Below are positions 2,286 to 62,700 of a DNA stretch of 64,000 nt, piece after piece; position 1 is the first letter of the stretch, and each line of letters opens with the position of its first letter. The DNA is from Halogeometricum sp. S3BR5-2 (GTDB lineage: Archaea > Halobacteriota > Halobacteria > Halobacteriales > Haloferacaceae), in contig NZ_JAMQOQ010000004.1 of assembly GCF_031624635.1 (NCBI RefSeq), forward strand, positions 248,001 to 312,000. Direction: 5' to 3'. The position numbers were made by a program, and so were the translations under genes. Under the pieces are notes generated by a model. That model had not been told where the DNA came from. It did not search any database and was given only the letters and a program-made list of their open reading frames with translations.

Positions 2286-3224
2286 ATGGGAACGCTCAGG
2301 GACGCGGCCGCAGACGCCGGCGTACGAGTCGGTGCGGCCGTCGACGCCGACTCGCTCAGAACCGACACCGACTACCGGCGGACGCTCTCGTCCGAGTTCG
2401 ACGCCGTCGTCGCCGAGAACGCGATGAAGTGGGGGCGGCTCAGTGATGGCGAGGGATGCTACGACTTCACAGACGCCGACGACATCGTGGCGTTCGCGAA
2501 CCGAAACGACATGTACGTCCGCGGGCACACGCTCGTTTGGCACCGGATGTACCCCGACTGGCTCCGACCGTGGTCGCGGTCCGAGGCGTCGGCCCGTCGA
2601 ACGCTCAGAACGCACGTCCAGACCGTCGCCGGTCGGTACCGCGGACGCGTCGACGCGTGGGACGTGGTGAACGAGGCCGTCGCGGACGACGGCGGCCTCC
2701 GGGAGACGCAGTGGCTCGCGTCGCTCGGTCCGGAGTACCTCGACCGCGCGTTCGAGTGGGCCGACGACGTGTCCGACGCCGACCTGTTCTACAACGACTA
2801 CGGCGCGGACGGCCTCTCGGCGAAGTCCGACGCGGTGTATGACCTCGTCTCGGAGATGGTCGCCCGCGACGTGCCGATAGACGGCGTCGGTCTGCAGTTA
2901 CACGTCTTCGACGAAACGGTCCCGCCGGCCGACGTCGCCGCCAACGTCGAACGCCTCACCGAACTCGGTCTGACCGTGCACGTCACCGAACTCGACGTGG
3001 GCATCGGCGAGGCCGTCGTCGACGCGGACGAACAGGCCGACTACTACCGCGACGTCGTCTCGGCCGCCGTCGACGCCGGCGCCGAGGCCGTCGTCACGTG
3101 GGGCGTCGACGACGGACAGTCGTGGCTGCCGGCGCGGGGGTGGGGGGAGGCTCCGCTCCTGTTCGACGAGCGGTTCCGGCGAAAACCCGCTTACCACGGC
3201 GTCGCGGACGCGCTCTCGAAGTAG
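2286..3224 (+). CDS. Intracellular endo-1,4-beta-xylanase, GH10
   Basis: A compact 312-residue GH10 catalytic domain with no signal peptide, so it should act in the cytoplasm on imported xylo-oligosaccharides. The catalytic acid/base Glu130 lies in WDVVNEA and the nucleophile Glu235 in VHVTELD; the GHTLVWH substrate-binding motif is at residues 80-86 and a conserved late Trp is in VVTWGVDD. The reading frame extends further upstream, but the ATG at 2286 places the conserved N-terminus (GVRVGAAVD) correctly, and the upstream part looks non-coding. It ends 30 bases from the convergent epimerase gene. This copy keeps both catalytic residues, unlike the secreted GH10 protein at 25616-27730. Confidence 0.93.
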   Translation: MGTLRDAAADAGVRVGAAVDADSLRTDTDYRRTLSSEFDAVVAENAMKWGRLSDGEGCYDFTDADDIVAFANRNDMYVRGHTLVWHRMYPDWLRPWSRSEASARRTLRTHVQTVAGRYRGRVDAWDVVNEAVADDGGLRETQWLASLGPEYLDRAFEWADDVSDADLFYNDYGADGLSAKSDAVYDLVSEMVARDVPIDGVGLQLHVFDETVPPADVAANVERLTELGLTVHVTELDVGIGEAVVDADEQADYYRDVVSAAVDAGAEAVVTWGVDDGQSWLPARGWGEAPLLFDERFRRKPAYHGVADALSK

Positions 3225-7297: not shown

Positions 7298-8779
7298 TCA
7301 GTACGCGTCCGCTTCCGCCAGCGTTTCGGACGCTTCGAGGTCCCACCCGTCGAGGTACGCTTCCTCGGCGGCGACGAGTTCGGCGAACAGGTCCCGCGCC
7401 GCCTCCGTCTGGAGGGTTCTGACCTGCGGGTCGAGGAGAAATCCCCGGAACGCGTGGTCGACGTCTCCAGTCCGCGAGGCCTCGACGACGGTTTCGATGG
7501 TGTCGACGTGCCCCTGCACCAACGAACGCACGGGACGGGGGAACCCGCCCGCGCTCAGCGGTCGGATTTCACCGGCGCGGACGAGGGCGTTCGCCTCCAC
7601 CACGGTATCGCGCTCGATACCGTCTACCTGCCCCCGATTGGGCAGGTTGAGGTTCGTGACGACGTCGTCGCCGCCCGCGAGGGCGTCGAGGACGTCGAGG
7701 AGCACCTCGCCGGAGGCTTCGAGTTCGAACTCCCGGTCGCCCGAGAGCCACGCCTCCACGTCCGTCGTCTGCTCGGACTCGGCGGGGGTCCAGTGCTTCG
7801 CGCGGAAGTCGCTGCCCGTCCGCTTGACGCCCCAGCGGTTCAGCCCCTCCGCGCCGCCCTGCAGAAACCACGTCGCGTACTCGACGATGTGGCGGTCCCC
7901 GGAGAACGGGAGCAGGCCGAACCGGCGGTACAGTTCCCACGACACCTGCCACGGGTCGGCGAACGGGCTCTCGTCTTCGAGGTCCTCGGACGCGAACCGT
8001 CGAGCGCCCTCCTCGCCGCGCGCCAACTCGTCGAGCAGGGGCCACAGGTCGACGCCGTCGCAGTACGCCTCGTCGACCCACGTGAAGTGGTTGATTCCCT
8101 TCACGTTCACCGAGATATCGCTCCGGTCGGCGTCCATCCCGAGGTGTTCGCCGGCCAACTCCGCCAATCGGTCGCAGCCGTGGAGCACTTCGTGGCACAT
8201 CCCGACGGCGTTGATGTCGGGGTACTCGTCGTACAGGGCGCGCGTGACGAAGTGAACTGGGTTAGTGAAGTTGAACACCCACGCGTCCGGGCAACGCTCG
8301 CGGATGGCGGCCGCGAACTCCCGGTACGTCGGGACGGTGCGCATCGCGCGGAGGATGCCCCCCGGCCCGATGGTCGCCGCTACCGCCCCGTAGATGCCGT
8401 ACTTCTTCGGCAGGTCGAGGTCGTGGACGAACGTCTCCGTGGGGTCGTACTGCGTCGAGAGGAGGACGACGTCCGCACCGGTCAGCGCCTCGTCCAGGTC
8501 GTCCGTCGCCGCGTACTCCCACTCCGCGGTGGCCGCCGCTCGTTCCCCGACCCAGTTACCGAACTCGGCGTTCCGTTCGGCGCTCTCGACGTCCACGTCG
8601 TACAGGCGAACGGTCCCGTCGAAGGGCGAGAGAGCGAGGTCCTGCACGAGGTTCGGTACCCACTGGCGACTGCCGCCGCCGACGTAGGCGACGGTGAGGT
8701 CGTCCGCGTCGAGACGCGTCCCGGCGGTCGTCCGCGATTCCGACGGCTCCCGACCGCGGTCTCCGATAGCTGACTCCAT
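7298..8779 (-). CDS. GH4 glycosidase with CHEV motif, probable alpha-uronidase
   Basis: A 493-residue family 4 glycoside hydrolase, an unusual NAD- and Mn-dependent enzyme class that works by transient oxidation at C3. The N-terminal Rossmann motif is VAYVGGGS (residues 30-37); the metal-binding block is GMCHEV (Cys195, His196, Glu197), and NHFTW follows. In this family the residues after the Cys track the substrate; I recall CHEV being reported for alpha-galacturonidases (LplD type), against CHSV in alpha-galactosidases. Here an alpha-glucuronidase or alpha-galacturonidase role is likely. There is no signal peptide. The frame extends to 9100, but that part overlaps the start of the divergent IclR gene and is not GH4-like, so I take the ATG at 8779. 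Confidence 0.88.
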   Translation of the reverse strand: MESAIGDRGREPSESRTTAGTRLDADDLTVAYVGGGSRQWVPNLVQDLALSPFDGTVRLYDVDVESAERNAEFGNWVGERAAATAEWEYAATDDLDEALTGADVVLLSTQYDPTETFVHDLDLPKKYGIYGAVAATIGPGGILRAMRTVPTYREFAAAIRERCPDAWVFNFTNPVHFVTRALYDEYPDINAVGMCHEVLHGCDRLAELAGEHLGMDADRSDISVNVKGINHFTWVDEAYCDGVDLWPLLDELARGEEGARRFASEDLEDESPFADPWQVSWELYRRFGLLPFSGDRHIVEYATWFLQGGAEGLNRWGVKRTGSDFRAKHWTPAESEQTTDVEAWLSGDREFELEASGEVLLDVLDALAGGDDVVTNLNLPNRGQVDGIERDTVVEANALVRAGEIRPLSAGGFPRPVRSLVQGHVDTIETVVEASRTGDVDHAFRGFLLDPQVRTLQTEAARDLFAELVAAEEAYLDGWDLEASETLAEADAY

Positions 8780-10935: not shown

Positions 10936-12303
10936 TCAGAGACCGTACAGTTCCTTCGGTCGGTCGTACGCCACGCGTTCGACGAGTCGTCTCGCGTTGT
11001 CGTGCGGCACGCGTCCGCGCTCGACCATCCGGCCGATGACGTTCGCGAGTGACCGCCGGAACATCTCGAAGCGCGACCCGTACGAGACGAGTTTCCGCGA
11101 GTCGCTGACCATGCCGGCGTAGTTCGCGAGCAGGTCCACCGCGGCGACTCGCTCCAGTTGGTTCTCGATGCCGAACGGGCTGTCGTTGAACCACCACGCC
11201 GGCCCGACGCTCACGTTCGGGTACGTCCGGGCGAGCACCGTCGCACTCGGGTAGTGCGTCGGGTCCAGCGTGTAGAGGACGACTTCCATCTCCCCGTCGA
11301 ACTCGTCGAGGAAGTGGTCGAGGTCGCCGACGAGGTCGACGTCCTGCGTCGAGACGTCGCCGCCGGCGTTCGCCCCGAGCGACTCGTACAGCGACTCGCG
11401 GTAGTCTCGGACCGCCCCGACGTGCAACTGCGTCACCCATCCGGCGTCGGCGTTCAGGCGGCCGACGAACCCGAGGAGGTACGCCTTGAAGTCGCGCACC
11501 GCCGCCTCGTCGATACCGTCGCCGCGGCGCGCTTTCTCGTACACCCCGGCGGCGCGCTCGCGGTCGACGGGCTTCGACACCGGCGTCGTTCCCGTGCCGA
11601 CGTCGCAGGCGACGCAGCCGCGTTCGGCGAAGTACTCGTGCGTCTCCGCGAGGGCGGCGAGAAAGCCCCCGAACGTCTCGACGCCGCTCTCGGTCGCCTC
11701 GTCCAGTTCGGCGACGAACGTCGACCACTCCGGGTTCTCTATCTTCAGCGCGCGGTCCGGTCGCCACGTGGGACGTATCTCGACGCCCTCCACCTCCGTC
11801 TCCGCGCGTTCGTGGTACTCGAGGCTCGACGTCGGGTCGTCGCTGCTGCAGAGCACCTCGACGCCCATCTCTCGGAGGACCGCCTGCGGTCGCTTCTCGG
11901 GGTCGGCCAGTTGCCGCTTCGTCTCCTCCCATATCTCGTCGGCCGTCTCCGCGTTCAGGGGTTTCTCGATGCCGAACCGGCGCTTCAGGTCGAGGTGGAC
12001 CCACTCGTACGTCGGGTTGCCGGCGAAGTCGGGGAACACCTCGGCGAGGGCGGTCCACTTCTCGCGGTTGCTCGCGTCGCCGGTCACCTTCTCCTCGGGG
12101 ACGCCGCGCTTGCGCATCAGTTGCCAGACGTAGTGGTCGGTCGCCCCCTCGACCGCCCAGATGTCGCTCCACGGCTCGTTTTCGACGACCTCGACCACGT
12201 CGATGTGGTTGTGCGGGTCGACTATCGGGAGGTCCTCGATTGCGTCGTAGAGCGCCGCCGCCGCGTCCGTCTCCAGCAGGTAGTCCTCGTCGATAAATCC
12301 CAT
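10936..12303 (-). CDS. uxaC: Uronate (glucuronate) isomerase
   Basis: A 455-residue UxaC-family protein of the amidohydrolase superfamily that interconverts D-glucuronate and D-fructuronate, and D-galacturonate and D-tagaturonate. The metal-binding DPHNH motif is at residues 29-33, and the family hallmarks WWFND and SDSRKLVSYGSRFEMFRR are visible near the C-terminus. The length is normal. It lies between uxuA (58 bases upstream) and the SDR gene (115 bases downstream) on the same strand, which fits the glucuronate to 2-keto-3-deoxygluconate route. Its substrate would be glucuronate freed by the GH67 or GH4 enzymes of this window. Confidence 0.94.
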   Translation of the reverse strand: MGFIDEDYLLETDAAAALYDAIEDLPIVDPHNHIDVVEVVENEPWSDIWAVEGATDHYVWQLMRKRGVPEEKVTGDASNREKWTALAEVFPDFAGNPTYEWVHLDLKRRFGIEKPLNAETADEIWEETKRQLADPEKRPQAVLREMGVEVLCSSDDPTSSLEYHERAETEVEGVEIRPTWRPDRALKIENPEWSTFVAELDEATESGVETFGGFLAALAETHEYFAERGCVACDVGTGTTPVSKPVDRERAAGVYEKARRGDGIDEAAVRDFKAYLLGFVGRLNADAGWVTQLHVGAVRDYRESLYESLGANAGGDVSTQDVDLVGDLDHFLDEFDGEMEVVLYTLDPTHYPSATVLARTYPNVSVGPAWWFNDSPFGIENQLERVAAVDLLANYAGMVSDSRKLVSYGSRFEMFRRSLANVIGRMVERGRVPHDNARRLVERVAYDRPKELYGL

Positions 12304-12361: not shown

Positions 12362-13327
12362 CTACCCCTTCTCGGAGCGCTCCGCTCGCTCCGTCAGCCC
12401 CTTCATGTAGCCGACGGCGAACAGTCGACCCATGTCGGTGTAGCCGGACATCGCTCCCGCTCGGTCCTCCTCACCGAGCATCTTCGGGACGTGGTCGGGG
12501 CGGATGGGCCCGTCGAAGCCGACGTCCCGGTAGGCGTCCATCGCCGCCGGCATGTCCGTCTGTCCCTCGTCGTGCCACGTCTCGACGAACGACTCCGCCC
12601 CGCCCTCCACGTCCCGGAAGTGGACGAAGTGGATGCGGTCGCCGAACTCCCGAATCGTCGCGGGCACGTCGGCGCCCATCGCCGAGAAGTTGCCCTGACA
12701 GAACGTGAGCCCGTGGTTCGGGCTGTCGAAGAGGTCGAGGATGCGCCGGACGTTCTCGACGGAGTTCACGAGGCGCGGGACTCCTCGGGCCGATTCGACC
12801 GGCGGGTCGTCGGGGTGGAGGGCGAGTTTCACGCCCGCCTCCTCGGCGACGGGGACGACTTCGTCGAGGAAGTACTCCAGGTTCTCCCACAGTTCCGCTT
12901 CGGAGATGTCGATCGGGTGGTCCGGTCCGCGTTCGGACTGCTCGTGGTCGTACGCCGTCGTCCGCGAGTCGCCGCGCAGGCGGACGGAATCGGAGGTCCG
13001 AATCACGCCGACCGGGTTCTCCGTCCACACCCACGAGTAGACGCCGATTCCGGCCCGTCCCATGTTCCGGAGCAACTCCTTGACCGTCGCTATCTCCTCG
13101 TCTCGACCGTCCTCGCCGAGCACCGTCTTCGTCATCGGCGGCCGGTCCTCGACGACGTCCAAGGAGAGACCGTGGTCGGCGAAGCGGTTTCTCGTCTTCA
13201 ACAACGAGTCGTACGTCCACCACTCCTCTTCCCCCCAGAACCGGACGACCGCGGTCGAGAGCCCCAGCTGCCGGGCGAGCGTCCACCGCCGGTCCGGACG
13301 CGGCGGGAGCATCAGCGTCGTGTCCAT
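12362..13327 (-). CDS. uxuA: Mannonate dehydratase
   Basis: A 321-residue UxuA-type TIM-barrel dehydratase that converts D-mannonate to 2-keto-3-deoxy-D-gluconate. Family features include the N-terminal LGLSTAVVRFWG region, VKLALHPDDPP, LTFCQGNFSAMG and IHFVHFRDVEG, which carry the expected metal-binding His, Asp and Cys residues. The ATG at 13327 shares its first base with the stop codon of the upstream universal stress protein gene (TGATG), so the two are translationally coupled; a GTG one codon earlier is the alternative start. It is part of the ALDH-Usp-uxuA-uxaC-SDR run. Confidence 0.94.
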   Translation of the reverse strand: MDTTLMLPPRPDRRWTLARQLGLSTAVVRFWGEEEWWTYDSLLKTRNRFADHGLSLDVVEDRPPMTKTVLGEDGRDEEIATVKELLRNMGRAGIGVYSWVWTENPVGVIRTSDSVRLRGDSRTTAYDHEQSERGPDHPIDISEAELWENLEYFLDEVVPVAEEAGVKLALHPDDPPVESARGVPRLVNSVENVRRILDLFDSPNHGLTFCQGNFSAMGADVPATIREFGDRIHFVHFRDVEGGAESFVETWHDEGQTDMPAAMDAYRDVGFDGPIRPDHVPKMLGEEDRAGAMSGYTDMGRLFAVGYMKGLTERAERSEKG

Positions 13328-13779
13328 CACTCCACCTTCACCGTCACGTACCCCTCGAAGTTCAGGATGAGCCGCTGGGTCTCGTCGCCGAAGACGGCCT
13401 TCCCCGTCGGCGACCGACGGCGACCGAGGGTGAACACGTGGTCGCAGTCACGACTCTCCGCGGCCTCGATGACGTGACGCGCCTCCAGTTCCTCGTTCAC
13501 ATCGGCGACGACGGACCACGCCACGTCGCCGTCGAGCGTCTCCGTCGCCATCCGCTCGGCGAACTGCCGCGCGACGCCGAGGGCCTCCTCGTCGCTGTAG
13601 TCGCGGTTCTCGATGCGTCCGATTTCGTCCAGCGTCTCGATAGCTTCCTCGTACTCCTCGCCGGTCAGCGGCGAGTACAGGACGAGTTCGGTCCCCGCGC
13701 CGGCGGCGTACGCCGCGGCCTCGCGGAGCAACGCCGCACATCCCTCTCGATCCTCCATCACTACGAGTGCGTCTCTCAT
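13327..13779 (-). CDS. Universal stress protein (UspA family)
   Basis: A 150-residue single UspA domain starting MRDALVVMED, with an alpha/beta nucleotide-binding-like fold and the late glycine-rich segment LGRRRSPTGKAVFGDETQRL that matches the ATP-binding G2xG9xGS/T-type loop of Usp proteins. The reading frame opens 50 codons earlier, but that part is not conserved in style and crosses the upstream AT-rich promoter region, so I use the ATG at 13779. It is translationally coupled to uxuA. A Usp inside a uronate catabolic operon may sense ATP or tune enzyme activity, but no function can be stated. Confidence 0.85.
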   Translation of the reverse strand: MRDALVVMEDREGCAALLREAAAYAAGAGTELVLYSPLTGEEYEEAIETLDEIGRIENRDYSDEEALGVARQFAERMATETLDGDVAWSVVADVNEELEARHVIEAAESRDCDHVFTLGRRRSPTGKAVFGDETQRLILNFEGYVTVKVE

Positions 13780-17078: not shown

Positions 17079-19382
17079 TCAGTCCGAGTTCGCCGTCTCG
17101 GAGTTCGAGTCGCTTGTCTCCGCGGCCGCGTTGGCGAAGAACTCCTCTCTGCTCTCGGCAGCCCCCTCGAGCGGTTCGCTGTCCCAGTAGCGGTGGTTCG
17201 GGTCCTCGCGGAAGCAGGCCGCCTTCCCGTCGCCGCCGTCGACGTCCTCGAGCGTCGGGTGCTCCTCGCGGCACGCCTCGCGCGCGACCGGACACCGCGT
17301 GTGGAAGCGACACCCGGACGGCGGGTTCACCGGGTCCGGAACGTCTATCTGCCGTATCGGCGGCTCCTCGGCCTCCATCGCGTCCAAGTCGAGGTTCGGC
17401 GTCGCCCACCGCAGCACCTCCGTGTAGGGGTGTCGCGGGTCGTGGATGAGACGCTCCGCGGTGCCTATCTCGACGATTTCGCCGAGGTACATCACCGCGA
17501 TGCGCCCGTCGCCGTGTTCGGCGAAGTACCGCGCGTTCGAGAGGTCGTGACTGATGAACAGGAACGAGGTGTCGAACTCCTCCTGCAGTTCGAGCATCAG
17601 GTCCATTATCTCGATGCGCAGCGATACGTCGACGGCGCTGATGGCCTCGTCGGCGAGAATGGCGTTCGGATTCATCAACAGCGCCCGCGCGAGGACGACG
17701 CGTTGCTTCTCGCCACCCGACAGTTGGTGCGGGTAGCGTTCGAGGAAGTCGCCCGCCGGCGTCATCCCGACGCGCTCCAACAGCGAGTGCATCCGCTCGC
17801 GTCGTTCGGCCTGGCTGATGTTCGGATGCGTGTGCCGCAGCGGTTCCGAGAGGATGTTTACGATGCGGCGGTTGGGGTTGAGCGCGCTTCCGGGGTCCTG
17901 GTGGATGATCTGGAGGGCGCGGCGAATCTCCTCGTGGGTGATTTCGACGTCACCCTCGCCGTCCTTCGCCTCCCAGATGTCCTGTCCCCGGTACCGTATC
18001 GACCCGCCGGTCGGACGCTGCAGACCGATCATCGTCTTCCCGAGCGTCGTCTTCCCGCATCCGGACTCGCCGAGCAGACAGACGAGGTCCTGCTCTTCGA
18101 TGTCCAGCGAGATGCCGTCGACGGCGCGGACGACGCTCGCGTCGCTCCGGAACCGGTCGAGCAATCCCTGCTCCTTCTCGAAGTGGACCTCCACGTCGTC
18201 CAGCGAGAGTAGGGGGGTCTCTCCCGGGCGGGTCGCTCCGCCGCCCGTGGCCCCCGGCCCGGACCCGGATCCGGATTCGCCCCCGGGAACCTGTCCGTCC
18301 TCGATGGTCGCGGCGTCCTCACCGAAGTTGAGCGGAATCTCTTCTTGTGCCTCCTGCCAGTGGTGGCAGGCGGTGCGGTGGGTGCCGCCGTCGCCGACGG
18401 CCGCCAGCGGCGGGTCGACCTCCCGGCACTCGTCGGTGGCGAGCGGACACCGCGGGTGGTACCGGCAGCCCTGCGGCACGTTCACCGGCGCCGGCCCCTC
18501 GCCCTCGATGGGTTGCATCTCCTCCAGCGGCGCGTCGAGGTTCGGCGTCGCGTTCAGCAGCGCCCTCGTGTACGGGTGGGCGGAGTCGCCGATGATCTCG
18601 TCTCGCGGACCGATCTCGGCGAACTGGAACGCGTAGATGATGGCCATCCGGTCGGCCAGGGAGGCGATGAGCGGCAGGTCGTGCGTGATGAAGATGATGG
18701 TGAGGTCGTACTGGCTCTGCAGGTCGTCGAGCAGTTGTAGAATCGACCGCTGCATCAGCAGGTCCAGCGCCGCGGTCGGTTCGTCCATCACCAGCACTTC
18801 CGGGTCGAGCACCATGCTCAGGGCGATGAGCGCCCGTTGTTGCATGCCGCCCGATAGCTCGTGCGGGTAGGAGTCGAGCACCCGGTTCGGTTCGAGGTAG
18901 AGGTTCTCCAGGAGTTCCCGCGCGAAGTCGAGTCCCTCGGAGACGTTCTTGTCGTGCGCCTTCAGCGTCTCCTCGAAGTGGGCGCTGATCTTCATCGTCG
19001 GGTTGAACGAACTCATCGCCCCCTGGAACACCATCGACACCTCCTCCCAGCGGAACTTGCGGAGTTCCTCGTCGGAGAGTTCGAGCACGTCGACCGAACT
19101 CCCGTCTTCGCGGTTGTAGGTTATCTGTCCCGTCAGGAGGCCCGGGTCCGGCACGGCGTCCATGAGCGCCGACGCGAACATGGACTTGCCCGACCCCGAC
19201 TCGCCGACGATGCCGAGCACCTCGTGGCGGTCGATGTCGACGTTCACGTCCTCCATGACGTACGTGTCGCCGCCGCTGTAGGTGACGTGCGCGTCCCGTA
19301 CCTCCAAGATGGGGTCGTTGACGACCCCTTGCGATGCCGCGTCGTCGGTCGCTGACGTGTTCGTGTCTGTGTTGGTTGCCAT
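17079..19382 (-). CDS. Fused double ABC ATPase of Dpp/Opp-type transporter
   Basis: A 767-residue protein that joins the two ATPases usually made separately (DppD and DppF). Domain 1 has Walker A at residues 60-67 (GESGSGKS), signature LSGGMQQR at 176-183 and MDEPTAALD. A Gly-rich linker spans about 362-388. Domain 2 has Walker A at 438-445 (GESGCGKT), signature LSGGEKQR at 554-561 and ADEAISAVD. Each half ends in an oligopeptide-type C-terminal region with a Cys cluster (GCRYHPRCP and GCRFHTRCP). It powers the permease pair encoded immediately upstream, six bases away. In this setting the cargo is probably xylo-oligosaccharide or aldouronate rather than peptide. Confidence 0.94.
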   Translation of the reverse strand: MATNTDTNTSATDDAASQGVVNDPILEVRDAHVTYSGGDTYVMEDVNVDIDRHEVLGIVGESGSGKSMFASALMDAVPDPGLLTGQITYNREDGSSVDVLELSDEELRKFRWEEVSMVFQGAMSSFNPTMKISAHFEETLKAHDKNVSEGLDFARELLENLYLEPNRVLDSYPHELSGGMQQRALIALSMVLDPEVLVMDEPTAALDLLMQRSILQLLDDLQSQYDLTIIFITHDLPLIASLADRMAIIYAFQFAEIGPRDEIIGDSAHPYTRALLNATPNLDAPLEEMQPIEGEGPAPVNVPQGCRYHPRCPLATDECREVDPPLAAVGDGGTHRTACHHWQEAQEEIPLNFGEDAATIEDGQVPGGESGSGSGPGATGGGATRPGETPLLSLDDVEVHFEKEQGLLDRFRSDASVVRAVDGISLDIEEQDLVCLLGESGCGKTTLGKTMIGLQRPTGGSIRYRGQDIWEAKDGEGDVEITHEEIRRALQIIHQDPGSALNPNRRIVNILSEPLRHTHPNISQAERRERMHSLLERVGMTPAGDFLERYPHQLSGGEKQRVVLARALLMNPNAILADEAISAVDVSLRIEIMDLMLELQEEFDTSFLFISHDLSNARYFAEHGDGRIAVMYLGEIVEIGTAERLIHDPRHPYTEVLRWATPNLDLDAMEAEEPPIRQIDVPDPVNPPSGCRFHTRCPVAREACREEHPTLEDVDGGDGKAACFREDPNHRYWDSEPLEGAAESREEFFANAAAETSDSNSETANSD

Positions 19383-19388
19383 GTTATA

Positions 19389-20414
19389 TCATACCCACGT
19401 GGACGTGGATTCGTTCTCGCCCTCTTCGTCGACGGACTCGGACTCGCCGGTCAACCGGGTGCGCACCCGGGGGTTGAAGATGCGGTCCATCCCCTGACTC
19501 ACGAGGATGAGACCGAAGGCGAGTCCGACGATGGCGACGATGGGGACGAGCAGCCAGTGGAGCGCCTGCATCGTGAACAGGCCGCCCTGGTTGTACGCGT
19601 TGTTCAGCGTGACGCCCCAGTTCTGACCCGTGTACGGCAGCACGCCGATGAAGTACAGGCCGACCGAGGCGAAGATGGTGTACCGCGCGGCGAGCACGAA
19701 GTTGACCATCACGTACGGCATGATGTTGGGCAGGACGTCTTTGAGGATGATCCTGGACGTCCCCGTACCCATCGTGCGTGCGGCCTCGACGTAGCTCGCC
19801 TCCCGAATCGACAGCACTTGCGAGCGGATGGAGCGCCCCAGCCCCGCCCAGTAGTTGATGGTGAGTATCATCCCGAGGAAGATGGGGTTCTCCGGGCTGA
19901 ACGTGATGGCGAGGATGATGACGAGCGGGAGCCCCGGAATCGCCATGAAGAAGTCCGAGACGGACGTGATGACGGTGTCGATGGCGCCGCCTTTGTACCC
20001 GGAGACGGTACCGACGAGGACGGCGATGCCGGTGGCCCAGACGCCGCCGGCGAGCACCATCAGCAGGATGAACGGCGTCGAGTCGATGATGAGTGCGAGC
20101 AGGTCGACGCCCGACTGGGTCGTCCCGAGCGGGTACGCCCAGTTCTGGAACGGCGGGAGGAGTCGCTCGGCCTGACTGGGTGAGGGGTCGCGCCACAGAC
20201 CGAGAATCTCGACGAGCGCCATGAGCAGGTAGACGCTGAGGATGACGATGCCGATGCGGGTGCGCCGGTCGGACCACGCGACGGCCGCGGGTTCGTACAC
20301 CGAGTGACGGTAGAACTCTTCGAGCCGGTCGCGGCGGCTCATCTCGACCGACGACGACTCGGAGCGCCAGTCGATATCGTCCGAGGAGGACGAGGAGTCC
20401 GCCTCAGTAGCCAT
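19389..20414 (-). CDS. ABC transporter permease, DppC type
   Basis: A 341-residue permease with a hydrophilic Ser/Asp-rich N-terminal segment, one isolated N-terminal membrane helix (IGIVILSVYLLMALVEI), then a binding-protein-dependent transport domain of about five helices. The EAA-like cytoplasmic loop is at REASYVEAARTMGTGTSRII. The ATG at 20414 overlaps the upstream DppB-like gene by 11 bases; a GTG at 20423 is the alternative. It pairs with the DppB-type protein and the fused ATPase to make a complete importer with the binding protein at 21433-23247. Confidence 0.93.
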   Translation of the reverse strand: MATEADSSSSSDDIDWRSESSSVEMSRRDRLEEFYRHSVYEPAAVAWSDRRTRIGIVILSVYLLMALVEILGLWRDPSPSQAERLLPPFQNWAYPLGTTQSGVDLLALIIDSTPFILLMVLAGGVWATGIAVLVGTVSGYKGGAIDTVITSVSDFFMAIPGLPLVIILAITFSPENPIFLGMILTINYWAGLGRSIRSQVLSIREASYVEAARTMGTGTSRIILKDVLPNIMPYVMVNFVLAARYTIFASVGLYFIGVLPYTGQNWGVTLNNAYNQGGLFTMQALHWLLVPIVAIVGLAFGLILVSQGMDRIFNPRVRTRLTGESESVDEEGENESTSTWV

Positions 20415-21402
20415 CCGAATCACCTGCGCTGATGCGCGGGTCGATGAGACCGTACGTCAGGTCGGCCACGTAGACGGCGACCACGAGCGTGACCGTGATG
20501 ATGAGGAAACAGCCCATCATCAGCGGGTAGTCGTTGGCCTGGACCGCCGAGATGAGGTAGTAGCCGAGACCGGGGTAGGAGAATATCTGTTCGAGGACGA
20601 CGGTGCCCCCGAGACGGAAGCCGATGAGCAGCAAGAGTCCGGTGTACATGGGGAGAATAGCGTTCTTCGCGACGTACCGAGTGGCGATGCGGCTGTCCGA
20701 GAGCCCGCGGAGGCGCGCGACCTCGACGTACTCCTCGCCGAGCACTTGAATTCCGTTCCCGCGCATGTTGAGCGCGGTGGAGCCGATACCGCCGATGGTG
20801 AACGAGAGGATGGGAAGCGCCGCGTGGTGGAGCACGCTCGCTACGTACTCCACGCTGAGAGACGCCTCGACCCCCCTGTCGACCGCGTTCCCCGTCGGAA
20901 ACATGTTCAGCTGGAAGGCGAGGAAGAACAGGAAGACGACCGCGAAGATGTAGTAGGGAACCGCCATCAGGAAGATAGAGCTTCCCGAGGCCATCTGGTC
21001 GAAGGTGGAGCCTTCCCAGTACGCCTGCACGGCGCCGATCAGAACCCCGATGACGAACATCAACACGGTGGACGTCACGACGAGGAAGATGGTCCACGGG
21101 ATAGCGCGGGCGAGAACCTCCATCACAGGTTGGTTGAGCGAGATAGATCGCCCCAGATCCAACTGAGCGACGCCGACGAGATAGTCGAGGTACTGCTGCC
21201 AGAGCGGAGCGTCCGGCCGGATGTTCTGCAGGGCCTCGATGCGTGCGTTGACCTGCTCGACCGGAACCCCCTGCCGGATGAGCTGGATTCTGAGCTGGGT
21301 GAACGGCCCGCCCGGGAGCAGTCGGATGAGCCCGAAGGTAAGCGTCGCGACGGCGAGAACGGTCAGCGGAATCCTGAGCGTGCGTCGGAGATAGTAGTTC
21401 AT
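20404..21402 (-). CDS. ABC transporter permease, DppB type
   Basis: A 332-residue permease starting MNYYLRRTLRIPLTVLAV, with an N-terminal membrane helix, a periplasmic segment and a BPD_transp_1 core of about five helices. The EAA-type loop is visible as GEEYVEVARLRGLSDSRIA, and the family hallmark ENIFSYPG-like segment appears as EQIFSYPGLGYYL. Its 3' end overlaps the DppC-like gene and its start is 30 bases after the binding protein gene, so all four transporter genes are one transcription unit. Confidence 0.94.
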   Translation of the reverse strand: MNYYLRRTLRIPLTVLAVATLTFGLIRLLPGGPFTQLRIQLIRQGVPVEQVNARIEALQNIRPDAPLWQQYLDYLVGVAQLDLGRSISLNQPVMEVLARAIPWTIFLVVTSTVLMFVIGVLIGAVQAYWEGSTFDQMASGSSIFLMAVPYYIFAVVFLFFLAFQLNMFPTGNAVDRGVEASLSVEYVASVLHHAALPILSFTIGGIGSTALNMRGNGIQVLGEEYVEVARLRGLSDSRIATRYVAKNAILPMYTGLLLLIGFRLGGTVVLEQIFSYPGLGYYLISAVQANDYPLMMGCFLIITVTLVVAVYVADLTYGLIDPRISAGDSDGY

Positions 21403-21432
21403 ATTGGTGGATAGTGTCGGGTGGTCACGCGG

Positions 21433-23247
21433 CTATTGCTTGTACTGCAGTTCGCCCTCGTGGACCCACCAGAACGGCGGCCACTTGACGCGTCGGTTGG
21501 TGCTTCCCTCGGCGGCGACCGTCCAGTCGTCGTTCGTGACCCACGACTGCTCGAACTTCGAGACGATTCCGAGGAACGGCAGTTCGATGTGGTTGTGCCA
21601 CGCCGACTGCTGGACGTACTGTCTCGCCTCCTCGTCGTTGGGCTGCCGGGCGATCTGTTTCGTCACTTCGAGCGGGTTGATCGTCATCTCGCCGCCGCCG
21701 CGGGCGGGAATCGTCTGCTCGGACTCGGCCTTCTCGCGGTAGCCGTGACCGCCGCCGATGTCGGTCGCCCACAGCTGGTAGTACAGCGGGAAGTAGGGGA
21801 ACGCCGAGCGCGACCCGCCCGGCAGCCAGTAGAGGCTTCCCATCGTGAAGTTGCTGTTCGAGTACTGGCTGAACCAGTCGTTCGTCGGCCGGGTGCTGAT
21901 GGAGAAGTCGAAGCCGAACTCGTTGAGTTGGCTGACGACCGTCTGCGTCATCGTCGTCCAGTCGGTCCAGCCAGCCGGCGAGTAGTACTCCCCGCCGATC
22001 GTTCCGCCGTCCTCGCTCTGCCACTTTCCGCCCTGCTTGGAGTAGCCGGCCTCCTCCATGAGCTGCGTCGCCTGCTCGGTGTTCGTGGACTCGGGACCGT
22101 ACGTCTCGAAGTCGTCGAACCAGTCGCCCAGCCACGACTCCTGGTCGCGCGGCGCGATGCCGCAGGGCGTCGGCGTGACGAACTTCGTGCGCGGTCCGGC
22201 GTTTTCGACGACGGCCTGCCGGTCGACGACGTGCGCGACGGCCTGCCGAACCGCTCGGTTCCCGAAGTCGGGGTCGTTGTGGTTGAAGACGATACCGTAA
22301 CCCCACTTGGCCGGAATGTTGACCTCCACGACGTTGTCCGGGAAGCGGTCCGCTATCTCCGGGGGCGTGAACAGGCTCGTCGCCGCGTCGACTTCGCTCC
22401 CGGAGATGAGCGCCTGGTGCTGGGCGGTGTTCCCGCCGTAGCTCTCGATGAGGTAGGTGCCGAAGTTGACGTTGTCGGACTTGTAGAACTGCGGGTTGCG
22501 TTCGAACTCGAACGCCTGCTGGTCTTTGTTCACGAACGAGAACATCCCGCTCGCCACGGGGTCTTCCCACGCCCACTGCAGGAACGCCGAGGCCTCCTGG
22601 TCCAGCCACTGCTCGTGCGTCTCCGCCTTCGTGTCGATGAAGAAATTCGTCAGCTCGAACTTGACGATCTGCGGGTTCGTCGGCCCCGAGAGCATCAGCT
22701 TGGCCGTGTGGTCGTCGACAATTTCGTAGTCGTCCACGTAGCCCCAGAGGGAGCTTCCCGTCTTCTGGGCCAGTTGGATCTGGACCTCGAAGTCCTCGGT
22801 CGTCCACTCGTCGCCGTTGTCCCACATGAGGTCGTCCCGGAAGGTCAGCGTGACCTCTTGATCCTGTATCTGGAGGTCGGAGAGCGCGCCCATCAGGAAC
22901 TCCTGCTCGTTGAACGAGTACTTCAGATACGGTGCGAACACCGCTCGGCCGGCGGGCCAACTGAAGTTCTGCGTCGCAGAGGAGTTGAAGTGCAGGTCGA
23001 CCGGGTTCCCCGTGTAGGCGTTGACGAACGTCGCGTCCGCCACGGAACCGCCCGAAGAACCGTCCGTCCCGGCGTCGGTACCCCCGGAGCCGCCGGAGCC
23101 GCCGGTTCCGGCTTCGCCCTCTCCCTCGCCACCGTCGCCGCCCGAACAGCCGGCGAGCGCGGCCAGGCCCGACGCGCCCGCCGCCGCCAGCATCCGCCGC
23201 CGGCTGATTGTTCTGTCGTACTCGCCACGCCCGCTCCTGGATGACAT
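21433..23247 (-). CDS. Extracytoplasmic binding protein of Dpp/Opp-type ABC transporter (paralogue 2)
   Basis: A 604-residue SBP_bac_5 lipoprotein with a twin-arginine motif (ISRRRML) and a lipobox ending LAGC (Cys34), then a Gly/Ser/Thr-rich linker. It is the first gene of a complete transporter operon (binding protein, DppB, DppC, fused ATPase) and is divergent from the GH67 alpha-glucuronidase gene. It closely matches the binding protein at 5368-7185 over its entire length, with the N-terminal linker the most different part. The tight link to GH67 suggests the ligand is a glucuronic-acid-decorated xylo-oligosaccharide, by inference. Confidence 0.93.
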   Translation of the reverse strand: MSSRSGRGEYDRTISRRRMLAAAGASGLAALAGCSGGDGGEGEGEAGTGGSGGSGGTDAGTDGSSGGSVADATFVNAYTGNPVDLHFNSSATQNFSWPAGRAVFAPYLKYSFNEQEFLMGALSDLQIQDQEVTLTFRDDLMWDNGDEWTTEDFEVQIQLAQKTGSSLWGYVDDYEIVDDHTAKLMLSGPTNPQIVKFELTNFFIDTKAETHEQWLDQEASAFLQWAWEDPVASGMFSFVNKDQQAFEFERNPQFYKSDNVNFGTYLIESYGGNTAQHQALISGSEVDAATSLFTPPEIADRFPDNVVEVNIPAKWGYGIVFNHNDPDFGNRAVRQAVAHVVDRQAVVENAGPRTKFVTPTPCGIAPRDQESWLGDWFDDFETYGPESTNTEQATQLMEEAGYSKQGGKWQSEDGGTIGGEYYSPAGWTDWTTMTQTVVSQLNEFGFDFSISTRPTNDWFSQYSNSNFTMGSLYWLPGGSRSAFPYFPLYYQLWATDIGGGHGYREKAESEQTIPARGGGEMTINPLEVTKQIARQPNDEEARQYVQQSAWHNHIELPFLGIVSKFEQSWVTNDDWTVAAEGSTNRRVKWPPFWWVHEGELQYKQ

Positions 23248-23437: not shown

Positions 23438-25504
23438 ATGAACGACTACGACGACTGCTGGCTCCGGTACGACCGCGCGGACGCGGACCGCCTCGACTCG
23501 TACCGCCGACTGTGTCGACACGCGTACGTCGCCGAGAAGTCCCCCGAACTGAGCGCGGTTCGCGACGAACTCCGGCGGGCGATTCCGGGCCTCCTCGGTG
23601 AGGACCCGCACCTCTGGCAGCACCCGCCGTCGACGGCCGGGGGGTTCCTCGCTATCGGTACGCCCGACGATATGCGGATGGTCGCCGACTCGGTGCCGGT
23701 CGACGAGGTCGAGCGTCTGACCGACGGCGGGTTCCTCCTCCGGACCGTCGAGTGGGAGGGTCAGCGCTGCGTCGTCGTCACCGCTCCGACGGACCGAGGG
23801 CTGGTGTACGGCACCTTCCACCTCCTCCGACTGATGAGCGTCGGCGACCCCGTCGACGACCTCGACGTCCGCGAGGAACCGACGTACGCCAACCGACTCC
23901 TGAACCAGTGGGACACGCCGTTCCACCGGTCGGTCGAGCGGGGGTACGGCGGCGAGTCCATCTTCGACTGGGAGCGGCTTCCCGACCTGCGGGAGCGATA
24001 CGAGGACTACGCCCGGTTGCTCGCCTCGGTGGGAATCAACGGCGTCGTGCTCAACAACGTCAACACGGAGAAGCCGCCGCGACCGAGCGCCGGCGAGGCG
24101 TTCGACGCGTTCGAGGGCTGGCAGTTGCTGGAGTCGGGACGGCTGGAGGCGATGACCGGACTCGTCTCTGTCTTCCGGCGGTACGGCATCCGGACGTACC
24201 TCTCGGTGAACTTCGCCTCGCCGATGCTCGTCGGCGGCCTCGACACCGCCGACCCCCTCGACGACGAGGTCCGCGAGTGGTGGCGAGAGAAGGCCGACGA
24301 GGTGTACGACCTGATACCCGACTTCGGCGGCTTCCTCGTCAAGGCCGACTCCGAGGGGCAACCCGGTCCGTACGACTACGACCGCGACCACGTCGACGGG
24401 GCGAACGCCATCGCGGCGGCGTTGGACCCGCACAACGGACGCCTCTGGTGGCGCGCGTTCGTCTACGGTTCCCACGAGGACCGCGCGGTGCAGGCGTACG
24501 ACACCTTCGAACCGCTTGACGGCGAGTTCGCGGACAACGTCACCGTGCAGGTGAAGAACGGCCCCATCGACTTCCAGCCCAGAGAGCCGGTGTCGACGCT
24601 GTTCGGCGCGATGCCGGAGACGGACCTCGGACTGGAGTTCCAGATAACCGGCGAGTACACCGGACAGGGCGTCCACGCGACGTACCACCTCCCCATGTGG
24701 GAGGAGGTCTTCGAGTTCGACACGCACGCCGACGGTCAGGGAACGCCGGTGAAGTCACTGTTCCGCGGCGACGGCGAGGGCGTCGTCGGCGTCGGCAGCG
24801 TCGGCGAGGACGACACGTGGACCGGTCACTACCTGATGCAGTCGAACCTGTACGCGTTCGGGCGCACCGTCTGGGACCCCGACCGCTCCGTGGAGGAGAT
24901 AACGGACGAGTGGGTCAGACAGACGTTCGGCGCCGACGAAGCCGTCGTCGACGCCGTCTCCGAGATTCTCCGCGACTCCTGGGAGGCGTGCATCGACTAC
25001 GAGACGGGTGGCCTCGGACTGATGCACATGATGTACAACGGCGAGGCCTTGCTCGAAAACCACTACGACCCGTCGCCGGGGGAGTGGCCCGGCTACCACG
25101 GCGTCACCGAGGACGGCGTCGGCGTCGACCGGACGAGCGGGGGGAGCGGGTACGCCCCGCAGTACCGCGACCCGGTCGCGGAGCGCTACGAGTCCGTCGA
25201 GACCTGTCCCGAGGAACTCCTCCTGTTCTTCCATCACCTCCCCTGGGAGCACGAACTCTCCGACGGGACGACCGTCGTCCAGCGACTCTACGACAACCTG
25301 TTCGCGGGCGTCGAAGAAGTCGAGCGACTGCGCGACCTGTGGCGCACGTTGGAGGGCCGGGTGGACGAAAAGCGGTATCGTCACGTCTCCGAGCGGTTCG
25401 ACGAGCAGGTGGCGCAGGCGAAGCGCTGGCGGGACACGCTCGCCCACTACTTCTACGACCACGCCGGCATCCCCGACGAAGCGGGTCGAGTTCCGAACCG
25501 GTAG
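23438..25504 (+). CDS. Alpha-glucuronidase, GH67
   Basis: A 688-residue family 67 alpha-glucuronidase, which removes (4-O-methyl)glucuronic acid from the non-reducing-end xylose of short xylo-oligosaccharides. The general acid is Glu306 in VKADSEGQPGP; the base pair is Asp378 in KNGPIDFQPREP and Glu406 in FQITGEYTGQ, matching the Geobacillus and Cellvibrio enzymes. The N-terminal domain, TIM barrel (LNQWDTPFHRSVERGYGG) and C-terminal helical domain are all present at normal length. There is no signal peptide, so the substrate must be imported, which fits the divergent ABC operon next door. The ATG at 23438 gives the expected N-terminus. Confidence 0.95.
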   Translation: MNDYDDCWLRYDRADADRLDSYRRLCRHAYVAEKSPELSAVRDELRRAIPGLLGEDPHLWQHPPSTAGGFLAIGTPDDMRMVADSVPVDEVERLTDGGFLLRTVEWEGQRCVVVTAPTDRGLVYGTFHLLRLMSVGDPVDDLDVREEPTYANRLLNQWDTPFHRSVERGYGGESIFDWERLPDLRERYEDYARLLASVGINGVVLNNVNTEKPPRPSAGEAFDAFEGWQLLESGRLEAMTGLVSVFRRYGIRTYLSVNFASPMLVGGLDTADPLDDEVREWWREKADEVYDLIPDFGGFLVKADSEGQPGPYDYDRDHVDGANAIAAALDPHNGRLWWRAFVYGSHEDRAVQAYDTFEPLDGEFADNVTVQVKNGPIDFQPREPVSTLFGAMPETDLGLEFQITGEYTGQGVHATYHLPMWEEVFEFDTHADGQGTPVKSLFRGDGEGVVGVGSVGEDDTWTGHYLMQSNLYAFGRTVWDPDRSVEEITDEWVRQTFGADEAVVDAVSEILRDSWEACIDYETGGLGLMHMMYNGEALLENHYDPSPGEWPGYHGVTEDGVGVDRTSGGSGYAPQYRDPVAERYESVETCPEELLLFFHHLPWEHELSDGTTVVQRLYDNLFAGVEEVERLRDLWRTLEGRVDEKRYRHVSERFDEQVAQAKRWRDTLAHYFYDHAGIPDEAGRVPNR

Positions 25505-25615: not shown

Positions 25616-27730
25616 ATGTCAGACGATAATGCAAATCTTCGAAGCGGACGGCGACCGTTCCTGAAATCCATCGGCGTCCTGGGCGCCTCCGCGGTGTTCG
25701 GGTCGGCCGCAGCGAGCGCGCAGTCGGACGACTCGCTCGGCGCGTACCACCGGACGCTGCGCGAGGAACTGACGGCGTCGAGCAGACAACAGAAACAGCT
25801 CCCGGCGGGGGAGTACGTCTACGGAACGACCGAGGAGGATGCCATCGAGGCGTTCTCGCTGGTCGGCGGCGGCGACGAGTCGACCATCTCCGTCGACTCC
25901 GACGCCGTCCCCATCACGACGGGCGAACGGCTCGAACTGCCCGGCGACGGCGGAAGCCCGTCGGACTACGCGTATCGCGGGGAGATATCGGACCGCTCGT
26001 TCGAGGAGGGCGACCTGTTGTTGGCCGTCGCGTACGTCCGAAGCGACACGTCGGACGCCGAGGTGACGGCGAACTTCGCCTACCACTACACCGACGAGGA
26101 CGGTGCCGACGCGACGAGCGAGAACTTCGTCCAGCGGGGGGCGCACTTCGAACCGTGGGACCAGTGGATGCGCTACTTCTTCCCGATAGAAGTGGGCGCG
26201 ACGCCGACGGAGGACGCCGTGCCGGCACTGGAGTTCTGGACCTGCTACGGCGAACAGACCGTCGACTTCGGCGGCGTCGCCCTGTTCGACTACGGCGACG
26301 CGGAGGTGACGCTCGACACCCTCCCGCCGTACGACTACGAGGGGCGCTCTCTCGACGCGGCGTGGCGCGAGGAGGCGGCCGACCGCATCGAGGAGACGCG
26401 CAAGCGGGATTTCGAGGTGCGCGTCCTCGGTCCCGGCGGCGAACCGATGACCGACGCGACGGTGGACGTCGAGATGACCGAACACGCGTTCGACTTCGGC
26501 AGCGCCGTCTCGGTGGAGCATATCACGGGCGACGACCCCGACGACCAGACGTACCGGAGCACCTTCCTGGAGGATTTCAACAAGGCCACCGTCGAGAACG
26601 GTCTGAAGTACCCCGCGTGGGAGAGCGAGGAGGGCTGGGACATCGACAACGAGCGGACGCTGGATACGCTGGCGTGGTTGAATAACCGCGACTACCCGGT
26701 GCGCGGCCACTACCTCCTCTGGGAGGAGTTCACCACCGACGGCGGCGGCGGGATGGCGATAGAGAACGGTGAGTCCCTCTCGCCGGCGGAGGTGCGCGAG
26801 ACGGTCTCCGAGAAGATTCGGAACCACGCCCACGAGTTCGAGGAGGAGGTGGCCGAGTGGGACATGCACAACCACCCCATCTGGCAGAGCAACTTCCGCG
26901 ACATGGAGGAACTCGGCTGGGACGCCGTCGCGGAGTGGTGGTCCGTGGCGGACGAGGCGACGGACCACGCCCTGTACACCAACGAGATGGGCGCCATCGG
27001 CGGGCAGTGGCAGCGAAGCCAGTACCTCGACTACATCGAGCACCTCGTCGAGAACGACTACCCGCTCGACGGTATCGGCTTCATGGGCCACCACCAACAG
27101 TGGTACAACCAGATGCTCGACGTGACGAACATCATCGACGGCTTCGAGGCGTTCTCGGAGTTCGGCGTCCCCCTCTTGGTCACCGAGTTCGACATCCAGA
27201 TATTCAGCCGCCGGAACGCCCAGGACGTCGAGGTGCAGACGGACTACCTGCGCGACTTCCTGACGGTGGCGTTCAGCCAACCCGCCGTCGAGGGCGTCGT
27301 CTCGTGGGGCTTCTGGGAGGAAGACCACTGGCGGCCGACCGGCGCGTACTACGACACCGACTGGAGCATCCGCCCGCACGGCGAGATGTACCGCACGCTC
27401 GTCTTCGAGGAGTGGTGGACCGAAGAGCGCGGCGAGACGGACGAGGAGGGCGTCTTCGCGGCGAACGGCTTCAAGGGAAGCTACGAAGTGACCGCTCGCA
27501 AGGGCGCGCTGTCGGGAGCGACGGTCGCGACGGTGGACGACGAGCACGGCGCGGTGACGGTCGAACTCGAACCGCCGTCCGAGGGGGACGAATCCGAGGG
27601 GCACGGCGACGACGAGAACGGGGAGAAGCGGGGACACGACGAGGAGAAAGAGGAGGAAAAAGGAGACGAGAAGAGCGACGAGAAGGAAGGCGACGACCAC
27701 GACGAGGAGACGGAAACGGCGCACGACTGA
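25616..27730 (+). CDS. Tat-secreted GH10-like protein with the acid/base Glu replaced by His
   Basis: A 704-residue exported protein. It has a Tat signal (GRRPFLKS, cleavage near ASAQS, residue 37), an N-terminal beta-rich carbohydrate-binding-like region (about 60-235), a GH10 domain (about 255-600) of the plant-like subtype that begins with a short beta-domain and DFGSAVS, and a highly charged Glu/Asp/Lys/His tail. The nucleophile Glu524 is present in LVTEFDIQ, but the site that is normally WDVVNE reads WDMHNHP, with His420 where the acid/base Glu belongs. The protein may be a binding protein, an altered-mechanism enzyme, or use another acid. It follows GH67 by 111 bases and has its own promoter. 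Confidence 0.88.
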   Translation: MSDDNANLRSGRRPFLKSIGVLGASAVFGSAAASAQSDDSLGAYHRTLREELTASSRQQKQLPAGEYVYGTTEEDAIEAFSLVGGGDESTISVDSDAVPITTGERLELPGDGGSPSDYAYRGEISDRSFEEGDLLLAVAYVRSDTSDAEVTANFAYHYTDEDGADATSENFVQRGAHFEPWDQWMRYFFPIEVGATPTEDAVPALEFWTCYGEQTVDFGGVALFDYGDAEVTLDTLPPYDYEGRSLDAAWREEAADRIEETRKRDFEVRVLGPGGEPMTDATVDVEMTEHAFDFGSAVSVEHITGDDPDDQTYRSTFLEDFNKATVENGLKYPAWESEEGWDIDNERTLDTLAWLNNRDYPVRGHYLLWEEFTTDGGGGMAIENGESLSPAEVRETVSEKIRNHAHEFEEEVAEWDMHNHPIWQSNFRDMEELGWDAVAEWWSVADEATDHALYTNEMGAIGGQWQRSQYLDYIEHLVENDYPLDGIGFMGHHQQWYNQMLDVTNIIDGFEAFSEFGVPLLVTEFDIQIFSRRNAQDVEVQTDYLRDFLTVAFSQPAVEGVVSWGFWEEDHWRPTGAYYDTDWSIRPHGEMYRTLVFEEWWTEERGETDEEGVFAANGFKGSYEVTARKGALSGATVATVDDEHGAVTVELEPPSEGDESEGHGDDENGEKRGHDEEKEEEKGDEKSDEKEGDDHDEETETAHD

Positions 27731-59756: not shown

Positions 59757-62700
59757 ATGTTTGATGAACTAAATAATCGTTCGTCATCGAGGCTCCGCAG
59801 GCGGGAGTTCGTCGGCGGCATCACGTCGCTGGCGGCGGCCTCCGCGTTCTCGGTGGGCGTCTCCGAGTCGGCCGCGGCGCAGGTGGAGGAGGGGGACGAC
59901 GAACCCGGCCAGACGCTCGCCTCGCCCGACGGGTCCGTCGAGGTAGCCGTGGACGTGACGGACGGCGTCCCGAGTTACTCGGTGTCGCGCGAGGGGACGA
60001 CGGCACTCGAGGAGTCGACGCTCGGGTTCGAGTTCGAGAACCAGGCGCCGTTCCGGGACGGTATCGAGGTGACCGGAACCGAGCGCTTCAGCGTCGACGA
60101 GCGCTGGACGCCCGTCTGGGACCAGTACGACGAGATTCCGGAGCGATACGAGGAACTCCGAATCGGACTCCGAGAGACCGAGGAACCGAACCGGTCGCTG
60201 ACGCTCGAACTGCGCGCGTTCGACGACGGCGTGGGCTTTCGGTACGTGTTCCCCGCCGAGAGCGGGTTCGGCGACTTCGCCATCGCCGCCGAGCGAACCG
60301 AGTTCGCCTTCGCGGACGACCACACGTCGTGGTGGATAGAGAACGACTTCAACAGCTACGAGTACGCCTACGAGGAGACGCCGCTGAGCGACATCGGCGA
60401 CCTGAGTTCGTTCGGCGGGGCGCACACGCCGCTGACGACGAAAGCGTCCGAGGACCTCTACCTCAGCGTCCACGAGGCGAACCTCGTCGATTACGCGGCG
60501 ATGGCCGTCGAACCGACGGCTGACGGCGGCGGGACGACGTTCGAGTCCGTCCTCGCGCCCCTCCCCGACGGGACGAAAGTGACCGCCTCCGTCCCCCACC
60601 GGACACCGTGGCGGACGGTGCAACTCGCCTCTCGGCCGGGCGAACTCGTGGAGTCGAACCTCGTGCTCAACCTGAACGAACCGTTCGACCCCGAACTGTT
60701 CCCGAAGGGCACCGACTGGATAGAGCCGGGGAAGTTCGTCGGCATCTGGTGGCTGATGATAACCGGCCGCGCGGACTGGGAGTATCAGGGGCCCGAAACG
60801 GGCAACCACGGCGCGCAGACCGGCCGGATGAAGCGCTACATGGACTTCGCCAGCGAGCACGGCATCCGAAGCGTCCTCGTGGAGGGATGGAACGAGGGGT
60901 GGGATAGCTACCCCGGCGAGGGGGACACGATGGACTTCGACGACCCGTACCCCGATTTCGACTGGGAGGGGGTGACCGACTACGGCCTGAACCTCGACCC
61001 GCCCGTGGAGATGACCGCGCACAACGAGACGGCGGGCAACGTCTCGAACTACGAGTCGCAACTGGAGAACTCCCCGAATCCGTTCGCCGACTACGAGGAG
61101 AAGGGGATTCGCTCCATCAAGACGGGGTACGTCGCGGACTCGGGCGTCACCATCGACGGCACGACGTACAACCACCACTGCCAACCGCTGGTGAACCACC
61201 ACCACCTCGTCTACCGCGAGGCGGCGAAACACCGGCAGATGCTGGAGGTGCACGAACCCATCAAACCGACCGGCGAGCGGCGGACGTACCCGAACGTGAT
61301 GACCCGCGAGGGGGTGCTCGGACAGGAGTACGACTCCTTCGGCTACGTCAGCCCCGACCACCACGTCACGTTCCCGTTCACGCGGATGCTCGGCGGCCCC
61401 GTCGAGTACACGCCCGGCATCTTCGACATGGACTCGGGGTCCGGCGGCATCGAGACGACGCGCGCGAAGCAACTAGCGATGTACCCGACGTATCTCAGCG
61501 GCCTGCAGATGGTCGCGGACCTGCCGAGTTCCTACCTCGCGGAGCAGGACGCCACACTCGGCGTCGGCGACGTGGCGCAGGCGGAGTTCGGCGACCGAGA
61601 CGGCCTCTCGCGCGCCGCCCGGTGGGCGAACGCGCAGGGCGGCCGGTACGTCCCGTTCGACCCGAACGCGGCCGACTCGGGTGCGAGCGTCTCGTGGACC
61701 GTCGAGGGCGTCCCGGCGGCCGGTGAGTACGACGTACATCTCCGGTACGCCAGCGACGCCGAGGAGAACGCCGTCGACGCCGATACGCCGCGGACGGCCG
61801 TCGTCGCCGTCGGGGACTCCGCGACGCAGGTGACGCTCCCGCCGACCGAGTACTGGGACGAGTGGGCGACGACGACGGCGACGCTCTCGTTCGCCGAGGG
61901 CGACAACGACCTCTCCGTGACGCTCGGAGCGGACGACACCGGCGGGTTCAACCTCGACGCCGTCGCAGTCACCGAGTCGGGCGCGTCGATGCCGACGCCC
62001 GACGAGGACCCGACGCTCGGCCCGACGGTGCCCGAGTTCGAGTTCGTCGAGGACGTGCCCGCCGCCGGGTGGGACGACACGGAGGTGTTGGACGCCGAGA
62101 TAGGCGAGTACACGCTCACGGCCCGGAAGAAGGACGAGGAGTGGTACGTCGGCGCGATGACCGGCGCGGACGGGCGCGCGCTTGACGTGCCCCTCGACTT
62201 CCTCGCGCCCGGCGAGAGCGGAAGCCGAGGCGACGGAGACGGGAACCGGAACGGGAACGGAAAGGGCGCCGGGAAGGCGCCGAGCGGACCGAAGTACGTC
62301 GCTGAGATGTACTCCGACGCGGCCGACGCCGCCTACGACTCGAACTTGGACGACGTTCGCGTCGACGAGTTCGTCGTCGACCCGAGCACGACGGTGCTGG
62401 CGTCGATGGTTGAATCGGGCGGGACCGCGCTCCGCCTCCGACCGCCGGAGGGCGGCGAGGTCGGCGACCTGCCGCGGTACGAGCGACCCGAACAGGACGT
62501 GGACGTCGCCGTCGACGCGGAGACGTTCGTCGAGTCGCCGTTCGTCACCGCCACCGGGTCGAACGCGGGCGATTACGTCGGCGGAACGACGGTCGAGGTG
62601 GTCGTCGACGGCGAGGTTCGGGCGACGGCGAACGTCCGCTTCCCGCCGAACGCCTCGGACGAGTCGCGCACGCTCTCGTTCGCCATCGACGACCCCGGGA

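Follow-up and report, generated by a model that had tools for sequence, protein, structure and literature searches.

Family GH10 and the other retaining families of clan GH-A use a glutamate as the catalytic acid/base, and removing this residue from known GH10 enzymes strongly lowers their activity on xylan. The acid/base glutamate of GH10 is treated as fixed, and endoxylanases are counted from a family match alone. A good example of the canonical arrangement is XynA of Bacillus sp. KW1, for which both the enzyme (PDB 7d88) and an inactivated entry annotated E182A/E280A (7d89) are available. In other glycosidases a histidine may serve instead: a His/Asp dyad is the general acid in GH117 and has been proposed for GH3 NagZ and GH156 (PMC11574756).

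Here we describe a secreted haloarchaeal GH10 protein that has histidine at the acid/base position. Its gene occupies positions 25616-27730 (+) of a 64-kb stretch of DNA from Halogeometricum sp. S3BR5-2, hereafter the window, and is an open frame of coding composition encoding 704 amino acids. Residues 287-575 form a Pfam GH10 domain (PF00331, E 4.6e-31; 108.7 bits against a cut-off of 22.1), and the sequence begins with a Tat signal region, GRRPFLKSIGVLGASAVFGSAAASA, at residues 11-35 (25646-25720, +), which carries the Tat motif GRRPFLKSIG. The acid/base block reads WDMHNHP (residues 415-421; 26858-26878, +), encoded by the codons tgg gac atg cac aac cac ccc, that is W415, D, M, H418, N, H420 and P421, with HNHP spanning 26867-26878. 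The codon of His420 itself is CAC at 26873-26875 (+). At the other end of the protein, the tail encoded at 27540-27727 (+) is very rich in Asp, Glu, Lys and His, whereas the tails of homologues are Gly/Asn/Lys-rich or contain dockerin-like DxDGDG repeats.

The initial annotation had claimed that His420 replaces the acid/base glutamate and that the nucleophile Glu524 is intact, and the alignment with XynA bears out both points. His420 aligns with Glu182 of 7d88 and Glu524 with Glu280, and 7d89 has alanine at exactly these two columns. A structure model built from ten sequences (mean pLDDT 71) has the GH10 xylanases as its nearest fold, with a Z score of 32.7 to 7d88 over 352 residues and a Foldseek E-value of 1.6e-23, and the domain is thus predicted to form the GH10 TIM barrel. 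In this model residues 414-419 form strand 4, 453-458 strand 5, 486-494 strand 6 and 520-528 strand 7. His420, Glu457 (26984-26986, +), Met490 (27083-27085, +) and Glu524 (27185-27187, +) are placed on, or just past the end of, the strands that carry the GH10 active site. The strand-7 nucleophile, in the motif TEFD, is therefore in place, while strand 4 ends in histidine where GH10 enzymes have their acid/base glutamate. XynA shares the fold, the nucleophile and the subsite residues at 29% identity, and can be aligned over 352 residues that include parts before and after the barrel. It differs in its acid/base Glu182, in the Asn before it (WDVNNEM), and in having Asp and Gln where Glu457 and Met490 stand. 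All sequence and structure matches of the domain are to GH10, and the protein is a GH10 member by sequence and fold, without being a canonical GH10 catalyst.

The genes of the window make up a glucuronoxylan locus. The His gene is immediately preceded by that of a GH67 alpha-glucuronidase in which no signal was seen (23438-25504, +; PF07488, E 9e-127). The locus also encodes a UxaC glucuronate isomerase (10936-12303, -; PF02614, E 9e-141) and a UxuA mannonate dehydratase (12362-13330, -; PF03786, E 7e-75). An ABC transporter of the oligopeptide/oligosaccharide type (17079-23247, -) is recognised by its ATPase and solute-binding protein (PF00005, PF08352, PF00496), with its two likely permeases assigned by length, composition and position. 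A GH4-family glycosidase is found at 7298-8698 (-; PF02056/PF11975; longest ORF to 9100), and the window also encodes a GDSL esterase, two family-5 solute-binding proteins, an aldehyde dehydrogenase, a Gfo/Idh oxidoreductase, an enolase-superfamily enzyme and a GH3. According to the initial annotation, the locus has no other obvious secreted protein of xylanase type. This holds, with the addition that the window contains a second GH10 (about 2286-3224, +; PF00331, E 1.7e-92; longest ORF from 1971), which has the canonical WDVVNEA and TELD motifs, lacks a signal and is likely cytoplasmic. Further along, a secreted-type GH97 protein of 1253 amino acids (59757-63518, +) combines a glucodextranase C-terminal binding module with a weak match to CBM6.

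We searched 392 haloarchaeal genomes, 53 of which contain relatives of the His protein. In 96 aligned relatives the acid/base column holds Glu in 70 and His in 26, and nothing else within true GH10 domains. The HNH-type subgroup that the initial annotation had considered thus exists, as one conserved clade with correlated active-site changes. All 26 members, from many genera, have Asn-His-Pro at the acid/base site, and 25 of the 26 ORFs inspected carry a Tat-type motif. The clade comparison covers 383 columns, one truncated row having been replaced by a plasmid protein of Halocatena marina with the motif WDVINHP. Identity averages 54% and falls as low as 34%. The 45 invariant columns include H365, W369, D416, N419, H420, P421, N456, E457, H492, E524 and W564, and the invariant acidic residues are D416, E457, E524, D543, D547 and D582. 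No other glutamate fills the acid/base slot in the alignment of these 26 sequences. Residue 418 is less constant (His in 23, Gln in two, Ile in one).

Apart from His420 and Pro421, the clade differs from its Glu-type relatives at two active-site positions. Position 457 is Glu in 26 of 26 members, compared with Asp in 48 and Glu in five of the secreted Glu-type proteins and Asp in all ten leaderless canonical GH10s. Position 490, where other GH10s have the conserved Gln of a Q-x-H motif, is Met in 25 of 26; Gln stands there in 49 of 53 secreted Glu-type proteins and in all ten leaderless ones. Both E457 and M490 are also present in a far member of the clade (L097). Except for the acid/base, 457 and 490, the catalytic residues are essentially invariant: the nucleophile E524, its His partner H492 and the residues of the -1 and -2 subsites are all kept.

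In a tree computed without the distinguishing active-site columns, a single branch (SH-aLRT 99) unites 25 of the His sequences. It adjoins proteins of NEP type (WDVINEP, WDVVNEP) from a single haloarchaeon and from the bacterium Haliscomenobacter, whose plasmid-borne relative has WDVVNEP. A tree that constrains all 26 His sequences together scores higher and is not rejected (p-AU 0.62). Since the His branch lies beside these proteins and the constrained tree is acceptable, the His form would most simply have arisen once, from an Asn-Glu-Pro ancestor. Between close pairs, dN/dS is 0.13-0.33 in the His clade and 0.08-0.27 among Glu-type proteins, so the His clade is under purifying selection, perhaps a little weaker than that on its relatives. 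A sequencing error, which had been thought unlikely, is ruled out together with a single decayed gene: 26 proteins, spread over many genera and under purifying selection, share the motif. Used as a strict pattern, the back-translated motif matched no viral contig and, in 295 genomes of the phylum, nothing outside the haloarchaea. A peptide-pattern scan of 84,980 species, which detects close relatives only, returned four relatives, all haloarchaeal, of which two have the His motif.

Genes of the His clade are mostly found in (glucurono)xylan loci, and their neighbourhoods offer some guidance on the substrate. GH67, UxaC or UxuA genes lie near the His gene in 17 of the 26 loci, and recognised glucuronate genes are absent nearby in the other nine, the compared stretches being of unequal length. 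One of the other loci (L104) contains GH51- and GH127-type arabinofuranosidases and a GH97, another (L107) adjoins a GH51-type gene and a third (L090) adjoins GH5 genes. Because His loci also adjoin genes of these types, decorated xylans in general would be a fair guess for the substrate. Other haloarchaea have comparable loci in which a Tat-secreted GH10 of the Glu type is found beside GH67, UxaC and a leaderless GH10. These proteins have the same architecture as the His protein, about 30-37% identity to it and similar xylan loci, and differ in their WD(V/I)xNE motif with Glu and usually in Asp457 and Gln490. In its own loci, the His protein takes their place.

In the source genome (99.87% complete) the other two GH10s have no signal, GH11, GH30 and GH8 are absent, and two marginal GH5 matches and two GH43 matches are found. 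This is one of nine genomes (G000, G245, G343, G102, G160, which is only 87% complete, G384, G206, G151 and G080) in which the His protein is the only signal-bearing GH10 and GH11 is absent; their canonical GH10s are leaderless, broken or missing. In G151 the canonical leaderless GH10 (L091/L156) is interrupted by a TGA and split over two frames, leaving the His protein as the only whole GH10, and G080 has no GH10 besides the His protein.

We propose, with a confidence that stops just short of an even chance, that this is a catalytically competent, Tat-secreted retaining glycosidase of GH10 fold, in which His420 would replace Glu as the general acid/base. Glu524 would still form the glycosyl-enzyme, and His420 would protonate the leaving group and then activate water. 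Glu457 on the next strand would probably stabilise His420; both residues are invariant and sit on adjacent strand ends, their nearness being read only from strand order in a model of mean pLDDT 71. The pair would form a His-carboxylate dyad comparable to those of GH117 and GH3 NagZ, where a histidine general acid is supported by a carboxylate (PMC11574756), whereas for the GH10 clade the dyad is a proposal. Those enzymes belong to other families with other active sites, GH117 inverts, and the partner here would be Glu457. With a neutral or cationic histidine, one negative charge fewer would face an anionic substrate, an arrangement that would be favourable for xylan decorated with 4-O-methylglucuronic acid; a glutamate would push away any glucuronic-acid group close to the bond being broken, a possible reason for the exchange. 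Cleavage itself, the role of His420, the dyad and the substrate are all things that we infer. The fuller proposal, that a clade within GH10 (clan GH-A) has replaced the acid/base Glu by a functional His, which forms a dyad with Glu457, and cleaves extracellular glucuronoxylan at high salt, is put forward more doubtfully.

The initial annotation had left three alternatives standing: a different acid, a protein that binds xylan, or an altered mechanism. One conserved clade with correlated active-site changes argues for an altered but working site over decay, and a binding role has become less likely. The site looks re-built rather than decaying because the nucleophile, H492 and the subsites are kept, the replacement is always His and the second shell has changed with it; decay is further disfavoured because the acid/base column is never Ala, Gln, Ser or Asp. 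The 45 invariant columns, active-site residues among them, despite a mean identity of 54%, the correlated E457 and M490 changes at the rims of strands 5 and 6, the purifying selection and the nine genomes with no other secreted GH10 or GH11 all speak for an enzyme. The main competing explanation, which we regard as unlikely, is a non-hydrolytic pseudo-enzyme that lost its acid/base without replacement and whose cleft keeps polymer or oligosaccharides on the cell surface, ready to be taken up or to be used by other enzymes. GH10 enzymes usually cease to hydrolyse once the acid/base is lost, the cleft Trp and subsite residues needed to hold a ligand are kept, and two further observations count for binding and against catalysis: the otherwise conserved Gln490 is also lost, and dN/dS is somewhat above that of Glu-type relatives. 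However, all 26 members keep the nucleophile E524 and its partner H492, although binding alone would not call for a nucleophile; the replacing residue is histidine in every case, and in the nine genomes no other secreted GH10 or GH11 would supply the oligosaccharides.

It is also rather improbable that another carboxylate acts as acid/base, either Glu457 or, in a substrate-assisted manner, the carboxylate of a glucuronic acid that the substrate itself places at subsite +1; His420 would then serve only to create space or to adjust the charge. The change from Asp457 to Glu throughout the clade puts a longer side chain beside strand 4, D416 is the only other invariant acidic residue at the rim of strands 4 and 5, and the glucuronate genes of 17 loci fit such a substrate. 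But E457 is not specific to the His form, as it co-occurs with an intact acid/base Glu in five of 53 secreted Glu-type enzymes and must have another role there, a point that also weakens our proposed dyad. The loci without recognised glucuronate genes, nine of 26 and several with arabinofuranosidase-type genes instead, likewise count against both this idea and a glucuronoxylan-cleaving enzyme, and the invariance of His420 would be unneeded if it were not the acid/base. A phosphorylase or transglycosidase, in which His allows the glycosyl-enzyme to be attacked by an anionic acceptor (phosphate, uronate or other), a mechanism that has been claimed for GH3 N-acetylglucosaminidases, seems very unlikely. 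The title of Macdonald et al. 2015 (cited in PMC11574756) links a GH3 His acid/base with phosphorolysis; this protein, however, is Tat-secreted, extracellular sugar phosphates would need a dedicated importer, and no new phosphate-binding motif was seen. We give almost no credence to a catalytic or structural metal bound by H418-x-H420 and E457, which would explain why an HxH and an acidic side chain stand at the ends of adjacent strands, since residue 418 is not always His: two members have Gln and one has Ile.

Our searches of the open-licence literature turned up no GH10 protein described as having a His acid/base, and NCBIfam contains no fitting family; plasmid records name such proteins 'endo-1,4-beta-xylanase'. 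All seven GH10 proteins of strain HArc-gm2 have been counted as endoxylanases (PMC9726719), and its genome (G286) contains two GH10 genes of the His form (L004 and L039). Should the His form be functional, evolution would have given a retaining GH-A glycosidase a His acid/base, a natural change of this residue accompanied by two second-shell changes, and the sister Glu and His clades would give a ready comparison. If it is inactive, genome-based counts overstate the number of haloarchaeal xylanases, and the clade offers a GH10 fold that is secreted and binds xylan.

Some individual loci of the clade are of separate interest. One genome (G375) has tandem His-type copies (L030 and L041) with WDCQNHP and with SEFH in place of TEFD, so that the position of Asp526 is His. 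In another (G265) the His-type gene (L018) is split into two ORFs with internal stops, either a pseudogene or an assembly error. Finally, a locus of Halosimplex carlsbadense (L005) encodes at least five GH10 proteins in about 20 kb, the His-type one being followed directly by GH67.
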